From the NCBI GenBank assembly GCA_040752895.1, contig JBFMHN010000002.1:268368-332367 (forward strand): a stretch of 64,000 nt of DNA. The letters are read 5' to 3'. The notes under the pieces were generated by a model. That model did not search any database. It was not told where the DNA came from and saw only the letters and a list, made by a program, of their open reading frames with translations. The number at the start of each line of letters is the position of its first letter. The stretch's first letter is position 1. This DNA comes from Pseudomonadota bacterium (GTDB taxonomy: Bacteria; Pseudomonadota; Alphaproteobacteria; GCA-2746255). Shown in pieces: positions 3,261 to 12,626 of this stretch. A program made the translations under genes and the position numbers.

Positions 3261-4712
3261 CTATCCGAGCAGGCCCGCGACCTGCTGGAACCAGGCGACC
3301 AGCGGCGGCGGCAGGTAGAGCCCGACGGCAAACACCAGGGCGAGATGGGCGTACATCGGCACATAGGAAGCCTTGGCCGGCGCCATACTGCCGCGCGGCT
3401 CGCCGAAGGCGAGGCCGCCGAGGCGAAGCAGCAAGGCACCGAAGGCGATAAGCAAGCCGAAGACAAGCGGGATGGCAAGCAACGGCGCGAGGGCGAAGGT
3501 CGAACTCACCACCAGGAATTCGCTCATGAAAATGCCAAACGGCGGCAGGCCGGCAATGGCAACGACGCCGAGGACGAGCCCCCAGCCAAGCCACGGGTGA
3601 GTCTCGGTAAGCCCGCCGATGTCGGCAATTTTCTGGGTACCCTTGACCTGGGCGATATGGCCGACGGCAAAGAAGATCGCCGATTTGGTCAGGCTGTGCA
3701 TCACCATGTGCAAGAGCCCGGCAAAGTTAGCGAGCGGTCCACCCATGCCAAAAGCGAAGACGATGATGCCCATGTGCTCGATCGAAGAATAGGCAAACAG
3801 GCGCTTTATATCGCGGCGGCGGTAGAGCATGAACGCCGCGAACACGAGCGAGGTGAGTCCCATCGTCACCATAAGCGGCCCCGGGGTAAGCACCGCCGGG
3901 TTAGCCGCGAGCAGCATCTTGAAGCGCAGCAGTACGTATAACGCGACGTTCAGGAGAAGGCCCGACAGCACCGCCGAGATCGGCGTCGGGCCTTCGGCAT
4001 GGGCGTCCGGAAGCCAGGCGTGGAGCGGCGCCAGGCCGACCTTGGTGCCGTAGCCAAGCAACAGGAACACGAAGGCGACGTTGAGCAGAGCCGGGTCGAA
4101 GGCGGCGACGCGCTGGATAAGCACCGTCCAGATCATGGCCTCCGACCCCTCTCCCACCGCCGGCAGCGCCGCCATGTAGACGAGAATGGTCCCGAACAGC
4201 GCCAGCGCGATGCCGACGCTGCCCAAGATAAAATATTTCCACGCCGCCTCCAGCGCTTCATGAGTCCGATAAATACCAACCATCAGCACGGTGGTAAGCG
4301 TGGCAAGCTCCACCGCCACCCACATCAGGCCGATGTTGTTCGCGACGAGCGCCAGGTTCATCGCAAACATCAGCACCTGGTACATGGCATGGTAGAAACG
4401 AAGATGGGTCGGTGTCAGGCGACCAATAGCAAGCTCGTGACCGATATAGCCCGCGCTGAAGACGCTGGTGGTGAAGCCAACGAAGGCGCCGAGCACGATG
4501 AAGACGATGTTGAGATCGTCGACGAAGAAATACGCCCCCGGCTCGGGGCGCCCGGAGAAGAAAAGCGAGAACGCCGCAAGCAGCGTGCAAAGCGCCACCA
4601 GCGCGTTGAGCCGCGCGGTGAACCGGTAACTAGGCAGGAGCGCCAGCAGCGCTGCCGCACCGAGCGGGATCAAAAGAACCGCGGCGGTTGCATCGAAGGC
4701 AAGTGCGCTCAT
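3261..4712 (-). CDS. hyfF-like: Hydrogenase-4 component F / NuoN-M-like membrane subunit
   Basis: The 483-residue polytopic membrane protein belongs to the Mrp-antiporter-like family (NuoL/M/N, HyfB/D/F). The family signature LAPLHAWLPDAHAEGPTPIS is near residues 225-245, followed by LSGLLLNVALYVLLRFK. Further on comes the YSSIEHMGII segment, also diagnostic. These proteins form ion-translocating half-channels coupled to the redox arm. The ATG at 4712 overlaps the upstream HyfE-like stop, suggesting translational coupling, and the large-subunit gene follows 19 bases after the stop. Confidence 0.93.
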   Translation of the reverse strand: MSALAFDATAAVLLIPLGAAALLALLPSYRFTARLNALVALCTLLAAFSLFFSGRPEPGAYFFVDDLNIVFIVLGAFVGFTTSVFSAGYIGHELAIGRLTPTHLRFYHAMYQVLMFAMNLALVANNIGLMWVAVELATLTTVLMVGIYRTHEALEAAWKYFILGSVGIALALFGTILVYMAALPAVGEGSEAMIWTVLIQRVAAFDPALLNVAFVFLLLGYGTKVGLAPLHAWLPDAHAEGPTPISAVLSGLLLNVALYVLLRFKMLLAANPAVLTPGPLMVTMGLTSLVFAAFMLYRRRDIKRLFAYSSIEHMGIIVFAFGMGGPLANFAGLLHMVMHSLTKSAIFFAVGHIAQVKGTQKIADIGGLTETHPWLGWGLVLGVVAIAGLPPFGIFMSEFLVVSSTFALAPLLAIPLVFGLLIAFGALLLRLGGLAFGEPRGSMAPAKASYVPMYAHLALVFAVGLYLPPPLVAWFQQVAGLLG

Positions 4713-5371
4713 CGTCGCTCTCCCCGATAGCGGTCAAGCACGTGCACGTCCACCGTGTCGAAGCGTTCCCGGATACGAAACAGGAAGATGCCGATGACAA
4801 TGAAAGCGATCAGGATCGAGAAGGCGACGCTGATCTCCACCACGAGCGGCATGCCCTTGGCGCCGGTGGCGGCTAGGACCAGACCGTTCTCCAGCGACAT
4901 GAAACCGACCACCTGGCTGACCGCGTTGCGCCGTGACACCATCATCAAAAGACCCAGCAGGATGACCGACAGCGCAAACGCGAGGTCTTCGCGCGCCAGC
5001 AGACCGGCTTCGGCGGTTACCCGCAACATCACGACCATGGAAAGGGCAACCAACCCCATGCCGGCGAGCATGGTCAGACCAACGCCGACGACGGTTTCGA
5101 TCTCGCGGTGAATGCCGAGCCGCCGGACGATGCGATGGAGGGCCATCGGAATAACGATCGCCTTGAAAACGAGCGCGATCGCCGCCGTGACATAAAGGTG
5201 CGGCGCACCCTGGATCGAGGCCTGCCAGGCGACCGAAAGCGCCAGCGCCAGAGCGTGGAATGCGAAAAGATTGAGAAGCGCAGTGAGGCGGGCCTGGTAG
5301 AGCATCAGGAAGCTCACCAAGACGAGGCCACCGGCGAGCAGGTGCGCAATATCTAAGGCGAGGCCGTACAT
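4709..5371 (-). CDS. hyfE-like: Hydrogenase-4 component E (HyfE-like, NuoK-related) membrane subunit
   Basis: The 220-residue membrane protein has about six hydrophobic segments. The C-terminal part (MSLENGLVLAATGAKGMPLV, then a long helix IAFIVIGIFLFRI) resembles NuoK, including an in-membrane Glu. The length matches E. coli HyfE. The start is the ATG at 5371, one base beyond the stop of the upstream HyfC-like gene. The gene overlaps hyfF-like by 4 bases. Its role is as a small membrane subunit linking the NuoH-like and antiporter-like parts. Confidence 0.9.
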   Translation of the reverse strand: MYGLALDIAHLLAGGLVLVSFLMLYQARLTALLNLFAFHALALALSVAWQASIQGAPHLYVTAAIALVFKAIVIPMALHRIVRRLGIHREIETVVGVGLTMLAGMGLVALSMVVMLRVTAEAGLLAREDLAFALSVILLGLLMMVSRRNAVSQVVGFMSLENGLVLAATGAKGMPLVVEISVAFSILIAFIVIGIFLFRIRERFDTVDVHVLDRYRGERR

Positions 5372-5372
5372 C

Positions 5373-6329
5373 CTAGAGGCTCCGCGCGGCAACCAGTAAA
5401 AGGGTGCCGAGTAGGCCGAGCATGAGGGCAACGCCCAGGAACTCGGGCACCCGGAAGACTCGCATCTTGGCGATAGCGGTTTCGAACAGGGCAAGGCCGA
5501 CGCCACCGATGGCCAGCTTGGCAAGGTAGGCGACCGCACCCACAACGTAGGCCGCCGGCCCGGTGCCCGAAGCCGCCAGGCCCCAGGGCGCGAATACGCA
5601 CGCGATCAGCGAGACATACAGCAAGAGTTTGAGCGCGGCGGCGAGCTCGATCACCGCGAGATGCCGCCCGGAATACTCCAGCGCCATCGCCTCGTGCACC
5701 ATGGTGAGTTCCAAATGCGTCTCCGGGTTGTCCACGGGAACGCGGGCGTTCTCGGCGATCGCCACCATAACAAGCGCGACAAGCGCCATCCCAAGGGAAA
5801 CGCGCAAGCCCATTTCCGGCGAAGCCATGAAGGCGGCGATCGTTGAAAGCTGAGTCGAGCCGGCCACCAGCGCGAGCGTAAAGACAACCAGCAACATGGC
5901 CGGCTCGGCCAGCGAGGCGATCATGACCTCGCGGCTCGAACCGATGCCGCCGAAGCTCGTGCCGATGTCCATGCCGGCGAGCGCCAGGAAGAAGCGCGCG
6001 CTGGCGAGCAGCGCGACAAGAGCGATGAGGTCCGCCGTCCAGCTGAACAGAAGGCCCGTCGCGAAGGTCGGCACCAGCGCCGTGGCAACCCAAGTGGCGG
6101 CAAAGACGAGATAGGGTGTCGCGCGGAACAGCCAGGACGCGTTCTCGGCCAGCGCTGCTTCCTTGCGCAAGAGCCGTCGGAGGTCGCGATAGGGTTGCAC
6201 AATGGAAGCCCCCCGGCGGCGCAAAAGTCGCGCCTTGATCTTGCGGACGAAGCCGGTAAAGAGCGGCGCCAGCAGCAGCACGAGGCCCATCTGCGCGCCT
6301 TGGACGAAGAGATCGAAGATCACGGCCAT
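5373..6329 (-). CDS. hyfC-like: Hydrogenase-4 component C / NuoH-like membrane subunit
   Basis: The 318-residue protein is the NuoH/HyfC membrane subunit that docks the Fe-S arm and would form a quinone-chamber-like site. The diagnostic NuoH/HyfC motif ENARVPVDNPETHLELTMVH is present near residues 190-210, followed by EAMALEYSG. About eight membrane helices are visible. The frame is open to 6641, but the ATG at 6329 is where homologues start, and it overlaps the HyfB-like stop at 6320 by ten bases, implying coupled translation. Confidence 0.93.
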   Translation of the reverse strand: MAVIFDLFVQGAQMGLVLLLAPLFTGFVRKIKARLLRRRGASIVQPYRDLRRLLRKEAALAENASWLFRATPYLVFAATWVATALVPTFATGLLFSWTADLIALVALLASARFFLALAGMDIGTSFGGIGSSREVMIASLAEPAMLLVVFTLALVAGSTQLSTIAAFMASPEMGLRVSLGMALVALVMVAIAENARVPVDNPETHLELTMVHEAMALEYSGRHLAVIELAAALKLLLYVSLIACVFAPWGLAASGTGPAAYVVGAVAYLAKLAIGGVGLALFETAIAKMRVFRVPEFLGVALMLGLLGTLLLVAARSL

Positions 6330-8332
6330 AACGCAAGCACCAGAAGCAGCGTGACGAGGGCGAGGAAGACGAGGCTCAAATAGCGCCGGATAGTCAGAAA
6401 CTGAAAGTGGTTTAGCCGGTCGGCGACAAAGCCGACGGCGGTGACGATCGGCGCGTAAAGCGTATCCCACACGAGGTCGCGCAGCTCGACGACGAGGCGC
6501 GCCGGTCGCACGTCGCCCGGCAGCGGCATCTCGACACGTTCGCGAGCGCGAAAGACGAGCGTCCCGAATACGCGCCGTATCGGCTGGGAAAAACTGCCGG
6601 CCGTATATTGCGTGGCCGGGCTCGAGTCGGGAAAGCCGCAATCCCAGACCGGCGTCCGTCGGTGGGCGCGCGAGGCGAAACGGTGAATGGCGACGACGGC
6701 AAGCAACGCCGCAGCTACGATGAAGAGGAACACGAGGAGTCCGTTGTAGGAACTGCGGCTTTCAGCAATCGGTACGATCGAGAGCCATGCCACGCTCGCC
6801 TGCATCGGCATGCGCTCGCCCAGCAGCGACATCGTCACCGGGGAAAGCCCGTCGATGACGAAGCCCGGCAGAATGCCGGCGGCAAAGCAGAGCACGGCAA
6901 AGGCAAACATGGCGGCAAGCGAGAGGCGATCTACTTCCTGCGCATGCGCCGCCGACGGCGTCCGCGGCCGGCCGAGAAAGGTAATGCCGAACGCCTTGAC
7001 GAAGCAGGCGGCGGCCAGTGCCGCCGACAGGGCGAGCAAACCGCCGACCGCCGGCACCAGAACCTTAAGCCCCCATTGCGACAGGTCTGGACTCAACAGA
7101 ATGGCTTGGAAGGTGAGCCATTCGGAGACGAAGCCATTCAAAGGCGGCAACGCCGAAATTGCGACGCACCCGACTAGAAAGAGAAAGCTCGTGGCCGGCA
7201 TGCGGTGGATGAGACCGCCCATGTGCTCCATGTTGCGCTCGCCCGTCGCCGTCAACACGACGCCGGCGCCGAAGAAAAGCAGGCTCTTGAAGACCGAGTG
7301 ATTGAAAACGTGGAAAAGCGCGGCGGTGAACGCCAGCGCCGCGGCGAAACCCATGCCGTTGGCCTGAAAAGCGAGCGCGAGGCCGAGACTCACGAATATG
7401 AGGCCGATATTCTCGATCGTACTGTAAGCGAGAAGGCGCTTGAGATTGTTCTCCATCAATGCGTGTAGAATCCCTAAGACCACGGTGACGCTGCCGAGGA
7501 AAAGCACGACGACGCCAGACCACCAGCCGGGCTCGCCGAGCAGGTCGAAGACGACGCGGATGAAACCATAGACCGCGACTTTGGTCATGACGCCGCTCAT
7601 CAGCGCCGAGACATGGCTCGGCGCGGCCGGATGCGCGAGCGGCAACCAGACGTGCAACGGCACAAGCCCGGCCTTCGAACCGGCGCCGAACAAGACAAGG
7701 ACAAATGCGACCGCCGCAACGAACGGCGTGTGTTCGGCGGCGCGGATCGCTTCAAACCCATAGCTTCCGTCCGGCCCCGACAGCAGACCGAAGGCAAGCA
7801 GCAGGGCAAACGCCCCGAAACTCGCCATGACGAGATAAACGTACCCCGCCCGCCTATTGTCCGGTTCGCGGTGATGAGCCATGACCAGCGCCCAGGAAGC
7901 GAGCGACATGAATTCCCACGACAGAAGAAACGTGAAGGCGTCGTCGGCCAGCACCACGAGGCTCATGCCGGCAAGGAAGGCTGGAAAAAATGGCAACACC
8001 CGGTGCGGTGCCGGTTCGTGCCGGCCGTAGCCCATGGCATAAAGACTGGCAGCCGCCCCGCCCAAGGAGACGACCGCAAGAAAGAAAGCGGCAAGGGCGT
8101 CTAACCGGAAACGCGCGCCAACCCATGGCAGGCCAAGCGGCAACGTCAGGGCGGGCGCGGAATCCAAACCCGCAACCAAATGCGCCAGCGCCGCGGCTAA
8201 GGCGGCGATGGAGAGGACGAGGCTCAAGCCATAGACGATCCGCGTGGCGGCAGACACCCGCTCGATCGCTACGGCCAGAAGAGCAACGCCGAGCAGAGCG
8301 GCTACGCACCACAACGCTGCAACGACAGGCAT
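6320..8332 (-). CDS. hyfB-like: Hydrogenase-4 component B / NuoL-like proton-pumping subunit
   Basis: The 670-residue protein is close to the usual HyfB length and is the largest antiporter-like membrane subunit of the module. The family signature LVPLHVWLPLAHPAAPSHVS is near residue 220, followed by ALMSGVMTKVAVYGFIR, and YSTIENIGLIFVSLGLAL further on. There are some 15 or more hydrophobic segments. It is the first structural gene of the complex and begins 14 bases after the stop of the XRE regulator gene. Expected function: ion translocation driven by the peripheral arm. Confidence 0.93.
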   Translation of the reverse strand: MPVVAALWCVAALLGVALLAVAIERVSAATRIVYGLSLVLSIAALAAALAHLVAGLDSAPALTLPLGLPWVGARFRLDALAAFFLAVVSLGGAAASLYAMGYGRHEPAPHRVLPFFPAFLAGMSLVVLADDAFTFLLSWEFMSLASWALVMAHHREPDNRRAGYVYLVMASFGAFALLLAFGLLSGPDGSYGFEAIRAAEHTPFVAAVAFVLVLFGAGSKAGLVPLHVWLPLAHPAAPSHVSALMSGVMTKVAVYGFIRVVFDLLGEPGWWSGVVVLFLGSVTVVLGILHALMENNLKRLLAYSTIENIGLIFVSLGLALAFQANGMGFAAALAFTAALFHVFNHSVFKSLLFFGAGVVLTATGERNMEHMGGLIHRMPATSFLFLVGCVAISALPPLNGFVSEWLTFQAILLSPDLSQWGLKVLVPAVGGLLALSAALAAACFVKAFGITFLGRPRTPSAAHAQEVDRLSLAAMFAFAVLCFAAGILPGFVIDGLSPVTMSLLGERMPMQASVAWLSIVPIAESRSSYNGLLVFLFIVAAALLAVVAIHRFASRAHRRTPVWDCGFPDSSPATQYTAGSFSQPIRRVFGTLVFRARERVEMPLPGDVRPARLVVELRDLVWDTLYAPIVTAVGFVADRLNHFQFLTIRRYLSLVFLALVTLLLVLALWP

Positions 8333-8788: not shown

Positions 8789-9310
8789 CTAGTGCACGCG
8801 CTCCGGCCCCGGACGCGCGGCCCGCTCGAATGTTACTGACTGCCCAGGAGGCTGCCCAAGGTCGTGCCACGGCAGCGCGCCGCCGAAGGCTGTGGCGAAG
8901 GCGATGGCGGTTTCGCAAAAACCAGCGAGCCCGGCTTCTCCCACATGGCCATAAGCAACGCCGAAGCCGGCGGCGACACCGCGTTGGCAGGCCGCGACCA
9001 GAGAAACCAGCCAGACTTCATCTTCACCAAGGCACGGACAGCAGGGCCGATGGTAACGAAGCGGGCGGAGACCATGGGCGGCGAGACTGCGGAACAGACG
9101 CTCGAAGCAAACCAGGGCCAGCCTTCCGCGCTCGGCGCCGAGGCGTTCGGAAAACGCCTTGCGCACCAGAAACCAGTGGCGGTGGTCCTCCGTCACAGCG
9201 CCTGCGCACCAGTGCCGGAACGTCCAGACCAGCAGGCCTTCCGATTCCGTCAGATCCTTGAGCCAGGCCGGGCGGCCGCCGCTTTGGTCGGGAAACGTGT
9301 CGTTTTGCAA
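8789..9310 (-). CDS. Conserved-looking protein of unknown function with CCPCLG motif
   Basis: The 173-residue protein has no domain I can name. It begins with TTG at 9310, supported by a good GGAGG eight bases upstream. Visible features are a Trp/Arg-rich segment (LLVWTFRHWCAGAV), a Cys cluster HRPCCPCLGEDE near residues 88-99, and a hydrophobic, Ala-rich second half. The composition resembles short alphaproteobacterial hypotheticals of the same layout that I recall only vaguely. It is divergent from the EncFtn gene and shares the Fur-box intergenic region, so it is probably iron-related. No function is assigned. Confidence 0.6.
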   Translation of the reverse strand: MQNDTFPDQSGGRPAWLKDLTESEGLLVWTFRHWCAGAVTEDHRHWFLVRKAFSERLGAERGRLALVCFERLFRSLAAHGLRPLRYHRPCCPCLGEDEVWLVSLVAACQRGVAAGFGVAYGHVGEAGLAGFCETAIAFATAFGGALPWHDLGQPPGQSVTFERAARPGPERVH

Positions 9311-9350: not shown

Positions 9351-9375
9351 GATAATGAGAATGAAAATCATTTGC
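9351..9375. promoter_or_regulatory. Fur-box-like iron operator between divergent genes
   Basis: The stretch holds tandem hexamers GATAAT-GAGAAT-GAAAAT followed by CATTTGC. The 19-mer GAGAATGAAAATCATTTGC at 9357-9375 matches the classical Fur consensus at 15 of 19 bases by my count, and the overlapping frame at 9351 also matches 15 of 19. It lies between the TTG of the leftward unknown gene (9310) and the ATG of the ferritin-like gene (9481), so it could control both. In alphaproteobacteria the regulator could be Fur, Mur or Irr. Confidence 0.65.
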
Positions 9376-9480
9376 AATGCTTTTCAGCTCCTGCCGCGGA
9401 ACGGGCGGCGCATTTGCTTAAACCCCCGCTTCGCGGCAGACTGTCTGCCCCGCTCCAATTCAGCCAGAGGTTCAGACATG

Positions 9481-9783
9481 TCCAGCGAAACCCTGCACGC
9501 GCCGCGCGAACGTTTGAGCAAGAAAACGATCGCGCTGCACCAGGCGATCGTCTCCCTCATGGAGGAACTCGAAGCCGCCGACTGGTACCGTCAGCGCGCC
9601 GACGATTGCGAGAGCAAGACCCTGAAGGCGATCTTGCTCCACAACATGCGGGAGGAGATCGAACACGCCTCGATGATTCTCGAATGGCTGCGGCGCAACA
9701 GCCCCGACTTCGAGAAAGAGTTGAAGACCTACCTCTTTTCGAAGGGCGAGATCGCAAAGCTCGAGGAAAAGGCAACAAAGTAA
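9481..9783 (+). CDS. Encapsulated-ferritin-type (EncFtn) ferroxidase, without encapsulin neighbour
   Basis: The 100-residue, two-helix ferritin-like protein closely resembles the Rhodospirillum rubrum encapsulated ferritin core (HxAIVSxMEELEAxDWY, then AILxHNxxEExEHAxMxLEWLRRN, then LxTYLF). Expected ferroxidase ligands are present at E30, E60 and H63, with the neighbouring Tyr at Y37; in the R. rubrum protein these are E32, E62, H65 and Y39. Members oligomerise to make a di-iron site between subunits and oxidise Fe(II). Here the chain ends soon after KTYLFSKGEIAKLEEKATK and has no visible C-terminal encapsulin-targeting peptide, and no encapsulin gene is adjacent. The Fur-like box upstream fits iron regulation. 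Confidence 0.88.
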   Translation, partial: SSETLHAPRERLSKKTIALHQAIVSLMEELEAADWYRQRADDCESKTLKAILLHNMREEIEHASMILEWLRRNSPDFEKELKTYLFSKGEIAKLEEKATK

Positions 9784-9805
9784 GGCGCAAAAAGACAACG
9801 CGCTT

Positions 9806-9827
9806 TCTTCCCGGACCGCCGGGAAGA
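9806..9827. repeat. Inverted repeat (hairpin) after the EncFtn gene
   Basis: A perfect 9-base-pair stem TCTTCCCGG / CCGGGAAGA with a four-base loop begins 23 bases past the EncFtn stop. There is no T-run after it, so it is not a canonical intrinsic terminator; it could stabilise the 3' end or act as a weak stop. Confidence 0.4.
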
Positions 9828-9895
9828 GAACAAAGCGACAACTCCCAAGCGTCGCCAGCCCTTTCAGGCCCTATTTTTTCCTCGAAAAATCTCCC

Positions 9896-10256: not shown

Positions 10257-12626
10257 TCACCCTCCAAAGACGGCGCTTCGGCCGCGCCGCGCGAGCAGGT
10301 GATCGAAGGTTTCAAGCTCGGCCATCACCTTGCCGTAGAGACTTGCCGGCGGGTAGACGCCCTGGGCGTCCGGCGCACCCACCGCGAGGCCGGTAAAAAG
10401 CTCGGCCGCCTCCTCGATCGTGCGCACGCTCCACAGATGGAACTTGCCCGCCGCCATATCCTTCACCACCTCGTCGCGAAGCGTGAGATGGGCTTCGTTG
10501 GCGGCCGGAATCACGACGCCCTGGGTGCCGGTCAAATCCCCGGCCGCGAGGCAGGCGCGGTGGAAACCCTCGATCTTGTGGTGGATGCCGCCGACGGCCT
10601 GCGTAACACCGAGCTGGTTGACGGAGCCGGTGATCGCGAGGTCCTGGCGCAATGGCACGCCGGCAAGATCGGAAAGGATGGCCAGAAGTTCAGCCATGGA
10701 GGCGCTGTCGCCTTCGACGCCGCCATAATTCTGCTCGAAGGTGACCGAGCAATTGAAGGAAAGCGGAAAGCGCCGCGCGAAACGGCCGGTCAGGAACCCC
10801 TGCAAGCCAAGCACGCCCTTTTGCTGGATGGGGCCGCCGAGTTCGGTTTCGCGCTCGATGTTGAGGACGCCGCGCCGGCCGGCCGAAGCCCGCGCCGTGA
10901 CGCGGGCCGGCACCCCGAAGACATGATCCCCGAGGTCGAGCACGGAAAGCGCGTTCACCTGACCGACCGCAACCCCTTTCGTGTCGATCATCACGACGCC
11001 CTTGGCGATGTTCTCCTGCATGCGGTCCTCGAGACGGGCGTTCCGGCGGCGACGGCGGTGAACGACGGCAAGAATCTCGTCCCGGGTCACGGTCTTGACG
11101 CCGGGGCCGGCATCGAGTTGCACCGCCTCCGTCAGCATGTCCCGCGCGTTCTCGTATTGCGAGCTTAACTTCCCCCGGTCGCCCGCCCATCGTGAAACAA
11201 GACCGAGCAGGAGACGAACGGCCTCGTCCTCGCAGGTAACCTCGCCCAGCTCCACCGCCATCTTCCGCACCAGCCCGACATAGCCGGCGACGTTCTCCGG
11301 CGTCGCCTCCATGTCGGGGTCGATTTCCGCCTTGATCTTGAAATAGGTCCGCAAGTCCGGATCGAAGGAAAAGGCGCGGTACCAGAAGGGGGCGCCCACC
11401 AGGATGACGCGAACGGAAAGCGGGATCGGCACCGGTTTCGGCGATTCGGCGATCGGCAGCGCGCCCAGCCGGTGCAATTCCTCGATCCGGATCTCGCGGT
11501 CGCGCAAGGCGCCCTTCAGAAATTCCCAGGAAAAGAATTGCTGGGCCAGCGTCTCGGCGCGAATCACAAGAACGCCGCCGTTCGCCCGATGCAAAGCGCC
11601 GCCGCGGATCATCGTGAAGTCCGTCTCGACGATGCCGCCCGGCACCGGCCTATATTCGATGCGGCCGAACAGGTTCTCGTAGGACGGGTTCGGTTCGAGC
11701 ACGACGGGGAGCTTTTTCAACCCCCCGTTATCAACCAGCAGGTTCACCGCGTAATGCTGTTCGGGCGGCAGCACGCCCTTCGGCAATTCTTCCGCGGCCG
11801 AGACGCGAAAGAGATCGAGATTGTCGAGCATATCGCCGCGCATTTCGACCAGCCATCGCGCGAGGCCCGGGTATTTCGAGAACTCGTCTATCAAATCGTC
11901 GAGGATGCCGCCGATGGCGTTGTCGCCAACCTGACGGTTGAGCTCGCGCAGTTCCTCCATCAAGGTCCGTTGCAGGCGCGCCGCGTCGCGGTTGAGTTTG
12001 CGAAGCTCATCGCCCAGTTGGTCGCCGGCCTCGCGGAGCGCCTCGCGGCGTTCTTCCGGCACCGCCTCGACCGGCAGCGGCTCGCCTTTCTCGTCGAGCG
12101 CCACGACGACCATGCCCTGAGGCGTTTGGACAAGACTCAGACCGGCCTTTTGCGCCTCCTCCCGCATGGCCTCGACGCGGCGGGAGATTTCCTTGCCCAT
12201 GGCGTTGCGCCGCCGGCCGATTTCCTCCTGGTACTCCTCGGAGCCGAAGGCCTTCGAGAGCGCCTCGCGAAGCTGGGGCAGAAGAGCCGCCATGCGGTCC
12301 CGGAAGGCGCGACCCTTGCCGGCCGGCAAGCGGTGGGGCTTGGGCTGATCCGGCTGGCGAAAATTGTTGAGATAGACCCAATCGTCCGGCGGCTTGCGGC
12401 CTTCGACGAAGGTTTCCAGAAATTCGATCGTCGCCGTCATGCGGCCGCTGCGGTCGGCGCCGATGACGAAGGTGTTGAAGCCGGGGGCCTGGGTTGAAAG
12501 GCTGAGTTCGAGCGCCTCGCGCGCGCGGTGGTGGCTGGAAAGCTTGAAAATGTCGCCTTCCTCAGACCCGCCGACATCGAAACGGGGAAGGCCGCAATCC
12601 TTGCCGTCGATCGGCTTTGCCACCAC
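10257..12626 (-). CDS. Lon-like ATP-dependent protease (LonB/YcbZ-type, cytosolic)
   Basis: The 789-residue protein has an AAA-like N-terminal half and a C-terminal Lon protease domain. The catalytic dyad is visible: Ser641 in EGDSASMAELLA and Lys684 in GGIHHKIEGF, 43 residues apart exactly as in E. coli Lon (S679/K722). The P-loop is degenerate (IGADRSGRMTA), as in this subfamily, and a long charged, probably coiled-coil insertion occupies about 120-260. It lacks the LAN substrate domain of LonA; a separate LAN-domain gene is at 19648. Start: GTG at 12626 behind GGGAGG. Substrates unknown. Confidence 0.88.
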   Translation of the reverse strand: MVAKPIDGKDCGLPRFDVGGSEEGDIFKLSSHHRAREALELSLSTQAPGFNTFVIGADRSGRMTATIEFLETFVEGRKPPDDWVYLNNFRQPDQPKPHRLPAGKGRAFRDRMAALLPQLREALSKAFGSEEYQEEIGRRRNAMGKEISRRVEAMREEAQKAGLSLVQTPQGMVVVALDEKGEPLPVEAVPEERREALREAGDQLGDELRKLNRDAARLQRTLMEELRELNRQVGDNAIGGILDDLIDEFSKYPGLARWLVEMRGDMLDNLDLFRVSAAEELPKGVLPPEQHYAVNLLVDNGGLKKLPVVLEPNPSYENLFGRIEYRPVPGGIVETDFTMIRGGALHRANGGVLVIRAETLAQQFFSWEFLKGALRDREIRIEELHRLGALPIAESPKPVPIPLSVRVILVGAPFWYRAFSFDPDLRTYFKIKAEIDPDMEATPENVAGYVGLVRKMAVELGEVTCEDEAVRLLLGLVSRWAGDRGKLSSQYENARDMLTEAVQLDAGPGVKTVTRDEILAVVHRRRRRNARLEDRMQENIAKGVVMIDTKGVAVGQVNALSVLDLGDHVFGVPARVTARASAGRRGVLNIERETELGGPIQQKGVLGLQGFLTGRFARRFPLSFNCSVTFEQNYGGVEGDSASMAELLAILSDLAGVPLRQDLAITGSVNQLGVTQAVGGIHHKIEGFHRACLAAGDLTGTQGVVIPAANEAHLTLRDEVVKDMAAGKFHLWSVRTIEEAAELFTGLAVGAPDAQGVYPPASLYGKVMAELETFDHLLARRGRSAVFGG

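Follow-up and report, generated by a model that had tools for sequence, protein, structure and literature searches.

The window, that is, the whole 64 kb stretch of DNA that was analysed, carries a gene for a short protein of the encapsulated ferritin type (EncFtn), with no targeting peptide and no encapsulin gene adjoining. The original prediction had made both of these observations, and they are confirmed. The features of the locus are:

9351–9375, + strand: Fur-box-like hexamer array GATAATGAGAATGAAAATCATTTGC, ~100 bp before the start codon, with two overlapping 19-mers that match at 15/19
9478–9783, + strand: coding sequence of the short EncFtn (s-FLP) without targeting peptide, 101 aa, ATG start
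9562–9588, + strand: first half of the ferroxidase centre and the entry site, E29, E30, E32, W36 and Y37 (E31, E32, E34, W38 and Y39 of Rhodospirillum rubrum), from alignments and PMC5012862
9640–9666, + strand: second half, exit site and ferroxidase centre with the ExxH motif, H55, E59, E60, E62 and H63 (H57, E61, E62, E64 and H65 of R. rubrum), from alignments and PMC5012862
9739–9783, + strand: C-terminal tail SKGEIAKLEEKATK followed by the stop, from the alignment, the tails of relatives and a motif test
9803–9830, + strand: strong hairpin UUUCUUCCCGGACCGCCGGGAAGAG, ~20 bp after the stop (RNA fold of 9784–9890, z = -2.9)

The gene had been placed at 9481–9783; this end is correct, but the ATG was omitted and the coding sequence begins at 9478. 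GC contents at the three codon positions (0.55/0.35/0.82) are like those of the real genes of the window. Comparison with the genes of two congeners gives pN/pS of 0.17–0.27 (pN 0.12–0.17, pS ~0.63), and the short protein is under purifying selection.

The protein matches the Pfam EncFtn-like profile PF22277 with 127.3 bits (E 2e-37; curated cut-off 27). With the NCBIfam profile for encapsulin-associated ferritin-like proteins, TIGR04535, it scores 113.3 bits, below the cut-off of 125, and the match breaks off at position 95 of the 114 in the profile, short of the targeting-peptide end; an encapsulin-linked relative (L005) reaches position 114 with 130.1 bits. The PF00210 profile (classical ferritin, Bfr and Dps) gives no match and the rubrerythrin profile PF02915 a weak one (0.005), below cut-off. 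The best relatives in the PDB are the EncFtn of Haliangium (4.8e-32), that of R. rubrum (4.5e-27) and Nitrosomonas NE0167 (4.5e-27).

Ferroxidase, entry and exit sites have been assigned in R. rubrum EncFtn (PMC5012862). Residues E30, Y37, E60 and H63 align pairwise, at an offset of +2, with the R. rubrum ferroxidase centre E32, Y39, E62 and H65; likewise E29/E32 correspond to the entry site E31/E34, and H55/E59/E62 to the exit site H57/E61/E64. E29, E30, Y37, H55, E59, E60, E62 and H63 are invariant in an alignment of 41 rows and E32 in one of 12 rows. Thus all three sites are complete here, and these alignments show them unchanged between short and long forms. The predicted resemblance to R. 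rubrum EncFtn, including the E30/E60/H63/Y37 set, is borne out by the profile match, the alignments to PDB sequences and this invariance. An AlphaFold2 model (pLDDT 94.7) has the EncFtn two-helix hairpin and short C-terminal helices (helices at 15–43, 47–74, 76–85 and 92–99); it superposes at 0.8 Å on R. rubrum 5da5 and at 1.1 Å on 3k6c.

The C-terminus is where the protein departs from encapsulated forms. Cargo proteins of the FLP-TP class are defined by a C-terminal extension of 10–40 aa with a terminal (L/F)x(V/I)xx(L/I) tag. In the alignment, encapsulin-linked relatives run on for 20–40 further residues into a linker and a final (L/F)TIGxLK or SLGIGSLK, whereas LEEKATK is where the window protein ends. 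Its tail, which reaches the stop after residue 101, contains no targeting-peptide motif, and neither do the two remaining frames downstream. Two genomes of the same genus (G001 and G002) have the stop at the same residue, and no tag in any frame. The predicted lack of a targeting peptide is therefore upheld, both by the motif search and by direct comparison with encapsulin-linked EncFtn.

Could the short form be what remains of a degenerating encapsulin operon, or a product of a sequencing frameshift? Encapsulin-linked relatives do continue past the same point (EESATGGG...), and one short form, L068, is nested among long ones. This explanation is already contradicted, since the two congeners share the stop and have no tag remnant in any frame, the pN/pS values are low and the active-site residues are all intact; we regard it as hardly credible. 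The shared stop together with purifying selection shows that the short form is no frameshift artefact. A wrongly trimmed tag, the scenario named beforehand as the one that would overturn the prediction, is rejected as far as sequence allows.

The original prediction took EncFtn and encapsulin genes to be linked in known systems, with an unlinked one implied to be rare. This is not the case. Among the 80 nearest named loci in GTDB genomes, compared over up to 6 kb per side (less at contig ends), 64 carry a short form (92–108 aa) without targeting peptide, none of them with an encapsulin nearby. The remaining 16 carry a long form (122–138 aa), and in 16 of 16 encapsulin is next door. For canonical EncFtn in 24 whole genomes, an encapsulin is found anywhere in 0 of 21 with the short form and adjacent to the gene in all three with the long form (G036, G191 and G333). 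The joint table has 19 linked/long and 88 unlinked/short cases with no exceptions, the 88 including four of a divergent subfamily, two of whose genomes have a distant, unlinked encapsulin. Most of the nearest relatives thus have a shell-less short EncFtn, and the ‘orphan’ is the rule, not the exception.

The divergent subfamily (L026–L029, in genomes G123, G104, G175 and G325 of family f60) comes from a single genus, g64, of the same class as the window. Its members are very divergent short EncFtn-like proteins of 104 aa with an EEFKH motif and a branch length of 2.5; the two of the four genomes with a far-off encapsulin have no PF00210 match.

In a tree of the shared domain, built from 93 columns and with many forks unresolved, the short/long state requires seven changes, and at least five of these are forced by supported branches. 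Supported independent pairs agree in direction in 5 of 5 cases, although five pairs are unable to reach p < 0.05. The tag and the shell gene thus appear to have been gained or lost together, repeatedly, with the domain persisting without both. The window protein falls in an alphaproteobacterial short-form group (Novosphingobium, Oceanibacterium and Rhodospirillaceae MAGs), and the supported set that encloses this group also contains alphaproteobacterial long forms. Caulobacter, like Novosphingobium, carries a short EncFtn. L068 encodes a short EncFtn of 108 aa that sits among the encapsulin-linked long forms, with no encapsulin on the 12 kb of DNA compared; here tag and shell gene may have been lost recently.

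The short class has already been named. A 2024 review defines s-FLPs as short FLPs without a disordered C-terminus or apparent targeting peptide, with NE0167 (3k6c) as an example; they were at first called non-encapsulated, and the review leaves their encapsulation status undecided (PMC11202242). The window protein, with 101 aa, an EncFtn domain and no long tail, is a member of this class. A literature search, with most subscription journals outside its scope, found no experimental s-FLP study beyond the crystal structure.

Among the known systems that lie nearest is NE0167 of Nitrosomonas europaea (PDB 3k6c, 95 aa, a 2009 structure), also a short EncFtn domain with the same ferroxidase centre. 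The two proteins have ~54% identity and TM scores of 0.84/0.93, and both are without disordered C-terminal extension or targeting peptide. They differ in that the window protein belongs to an alphaproteobacterial ‘HAPRERLS’ branch whose tail is ~6 residues longer (LEEKATK), whereas NE0167 belongs to a 95-aa beta/gamma branch that ends in IAHx. R. rubrum EncFtn (Rru_A0973, 5da5) and Haliangium EncFtn (5n5f, 7oe2), both of the FLP-TP class, share with the window protein the fold (0.8 Å), the ferroxidase centre, the entry and exit sites and a match to TIGR04535. They possess a C-terminal extension, a SLGIGSLK-type tag and an adjacent encapsulin, none of which is found here; with no tag, no adjoining shell gene and a TIGR04535 score below cut-off, the window protein falls outside FLP-TP. 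The fusion-FLP of Pyrococcus furiosus (5n5e/2e0z) also has a two-helix EncFtn domain with ExxH, although the sequence match is weak (0.013), and it is fused to the encapsulin protomer, unlike the window protein. Classical Ftn, Bfr and Dps (PF00210) and rubrerythrin (PF02915) have in common with EncFtn the di-iron chemistry of the ferritin superfamily, but EncFtn forms no cage.

The own genome (2.29 Mb in 28 contigs, 99.87% complete) has no match to the family-1 encapsulin profile PF04454; the same search was positive in three control genomes. The genome search for an encapsulin that had been proposed as a check thus turned up no family-1 shell, and the suggestion that the encapsulin lies elsewhere is not supported. 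The family-2 shell profile PF19307 gave no match either, but its control was likewise silent and the result is uninformative.

These searches bear on whether a shell nevertheless encloses the protein, be it a divergent (family 2–4) or an unassembled one, through the short tail or by co-assembly. The review lists LFTD[E/N]KPIAHE as a putative s-FLP tag and notes no steric bar to encapsulation (PMC11202242). In addition, the PF19307 control was silent, and the shell search otherwise covered family 1. It should be pointed out that the corresponding region, LFTEGPI.., is also present in tagged long forms, upstream of the real tag, which speaks against the putative tag. PF04454 is also absent from the 20 other genomes with short EncFtn, and we consider encapsulation very unlikely. 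The alternative offered by the original prediction, a free, non-encapsulated EncFtn, is favoured over an encapsulin elsewhere because there is no family-1 encapsulin, no hidden tag and the same stop in the congeners; only the rarity implied with it falls away.

The genome also lacks any PF00210 match, i.e. ferritin, Bfr or Dps, in a search whose control was positive in all 14 genomes; weak PF00210 matches in congeners proved to be rubrerythrin at identical coordinates. A short EncFtn as a general stand-in for classical ferritin was considered and rejected, as PF00210 is missing from 5 of 15 genomes with short EncFtn and from 134 of 384 without it (p = 1).

There are three FUR-family genes in the genome, and a rubrerythrin gene lies ~300 bp after one of them (contig C2, position 404729). 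This arrangement (C2: 404130–405100), a FUR-family gene followed by rubrerythrin in a genome that has neither ferritin nor Dps, is likely a PerR-type peroxide-defence pair.

Within the 64 kb, the array at 9351–9375 is the only Fur-box-like site at ≥14/19, with 0.05 expected from Markov simulations, and transcription in this strain is possibly under Fur. No such site was found upstream of the congener EncFtn genes. Across relatives, one of 79 loci has a site at ≥14/19, against 0.17 expected, and a Fur box as a family-wide feature is not supported.

The main rival to a storage-free ferroxidase is a peroxidase-like function with the same fold and di-iron site, in which the protein would be a rubrerythrin-like scavenger of peroxide or O2 whose bound irons are recycled via an electron donor. 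A ferroxidase without a shell has no place for its Fe3+ (PMC5012862), the preferred oxidant of EncFtn may be O2 or H2O2 (PMC7762939), and there is the weak similarity to the rubrerythrin profile. On the other hand, short forms keep the exit-site residues H55, E59 and E62, a rubrerythrin next to a FUR/PerR-family gene is already present in the genome, and the Fur-box-like site points to iron. We judge this function unlikely.

The surroundings of the gene are not conserved. In both congeners, EncFtn lies directly behind tRNA-Ser(CGA) on the same strand (tRNA at 9085–9174 of L129 and 8770–8859 of L130), and the window gene is located elsewhere; a third congener (G003, 99% complete) has no EncFtn gene. 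The only neighbour gene of the window with any counterpart among the 80 loci is one of the acyl-CoA-synthetase type, which has distant homologues at three of them. A conserved operon partner was also looked for, and outside the synteny of Caulobacterales no family of genes is found repeatedly next to short EncFtn.

Three neighbouring features lie on the minus strand. At 4709–8332, a row of genes matches Proton_antipo_M, NADHdh and, weakly, Oxidored_q2, and encodes the membrane arm of a hydrogenase-4 or formate-hydrogenlyase-like complex. The reading frame at 8789–9310 is divergent from the Fur-box-like site, has atypical GC at codon positions (0.74/0.54/0.72), matches nothing in Pfam or NCBIfam, and may not be a gene. 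Downstream of EncFtn, 10257–12626 encodes a LonB/LonC-like protease (AAA_32, LonC_helical, Lon_C). The hairpin at 9803–9830 is a putative transcript end or stabiliser; it has no T-run directly 3′ and is therefore not a textbook intrinsic terminator.

Without its shell, R. rubrum EncFtn is an active ferroxidase whose decamers assemble with iron; only 10–15 Fe are bound per decamer, and the free protein precipitates excess Fe3+ in vitro (PMC5012862). A protein that does so is a poor detoxifier alone, and a partner or another reaction is therefore plausible. An unlinked partner might take the ferric product, perhaps an iron exporter in the membrane, a chelator of Fe3+ or a non-encapsulin assembly. 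The precipitation of Fe3+ argues for such an acceptor, but the gene neighbourhoods described above, with no recurrent family and almost no shared neighbour, speak against it, and the idea is quite doubtful.

The favoured explanation, to which we assign a probability of about 0.6, is that the protein is a free cytosolic EncFtn decamer, a ferroxidase that detoxifies or buffers Fe2+ and oxidant and does not store iron. The free protein would assemble in the cytosol as an Fe-dependent D5 decamer. Its inter-subunit di-iron site would oxidise Fe2+ with O2 or H2O2, and the Fe3+ would pass to soluble ligands of the cell, not into a mineral enclosed by protein. Fur may control transcription in this strain. 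Counting against this explanation are the precipitation of Fe3+ by free R. rubrum EncFtn, the absence of the Fur-box-like site in the congeners and the lack of correlation between missing PF00210 and short EncFtn.

EncFtn is commonly regarded as an obligate cargo of encapsulins. That view is challenged by the finding that the form without targeting peptide is commoner among the nearest relatives, in genomes free of shell genes. The s-FLP class is already named but little studied, and is common in Proteobacteria according to this analysis. The genome described here is a clean case because no classical ferritin and no family-1 encapsulin were found in it. A testable question is thereby raised, namely, the fate of Fe3+ from a ferritin-type ferroxidase that has no cage. 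Tentatively, and at a little under even odds, a cage-less EncFtn ring may be the sole ferritin-type iron oxidase of this organism, where the ferritin superfamily would then detoxify iron without any compartment to store it, and the family may have switched between shell-bound and free life at least five times by coupled gain or loss of tag and encapsulin.
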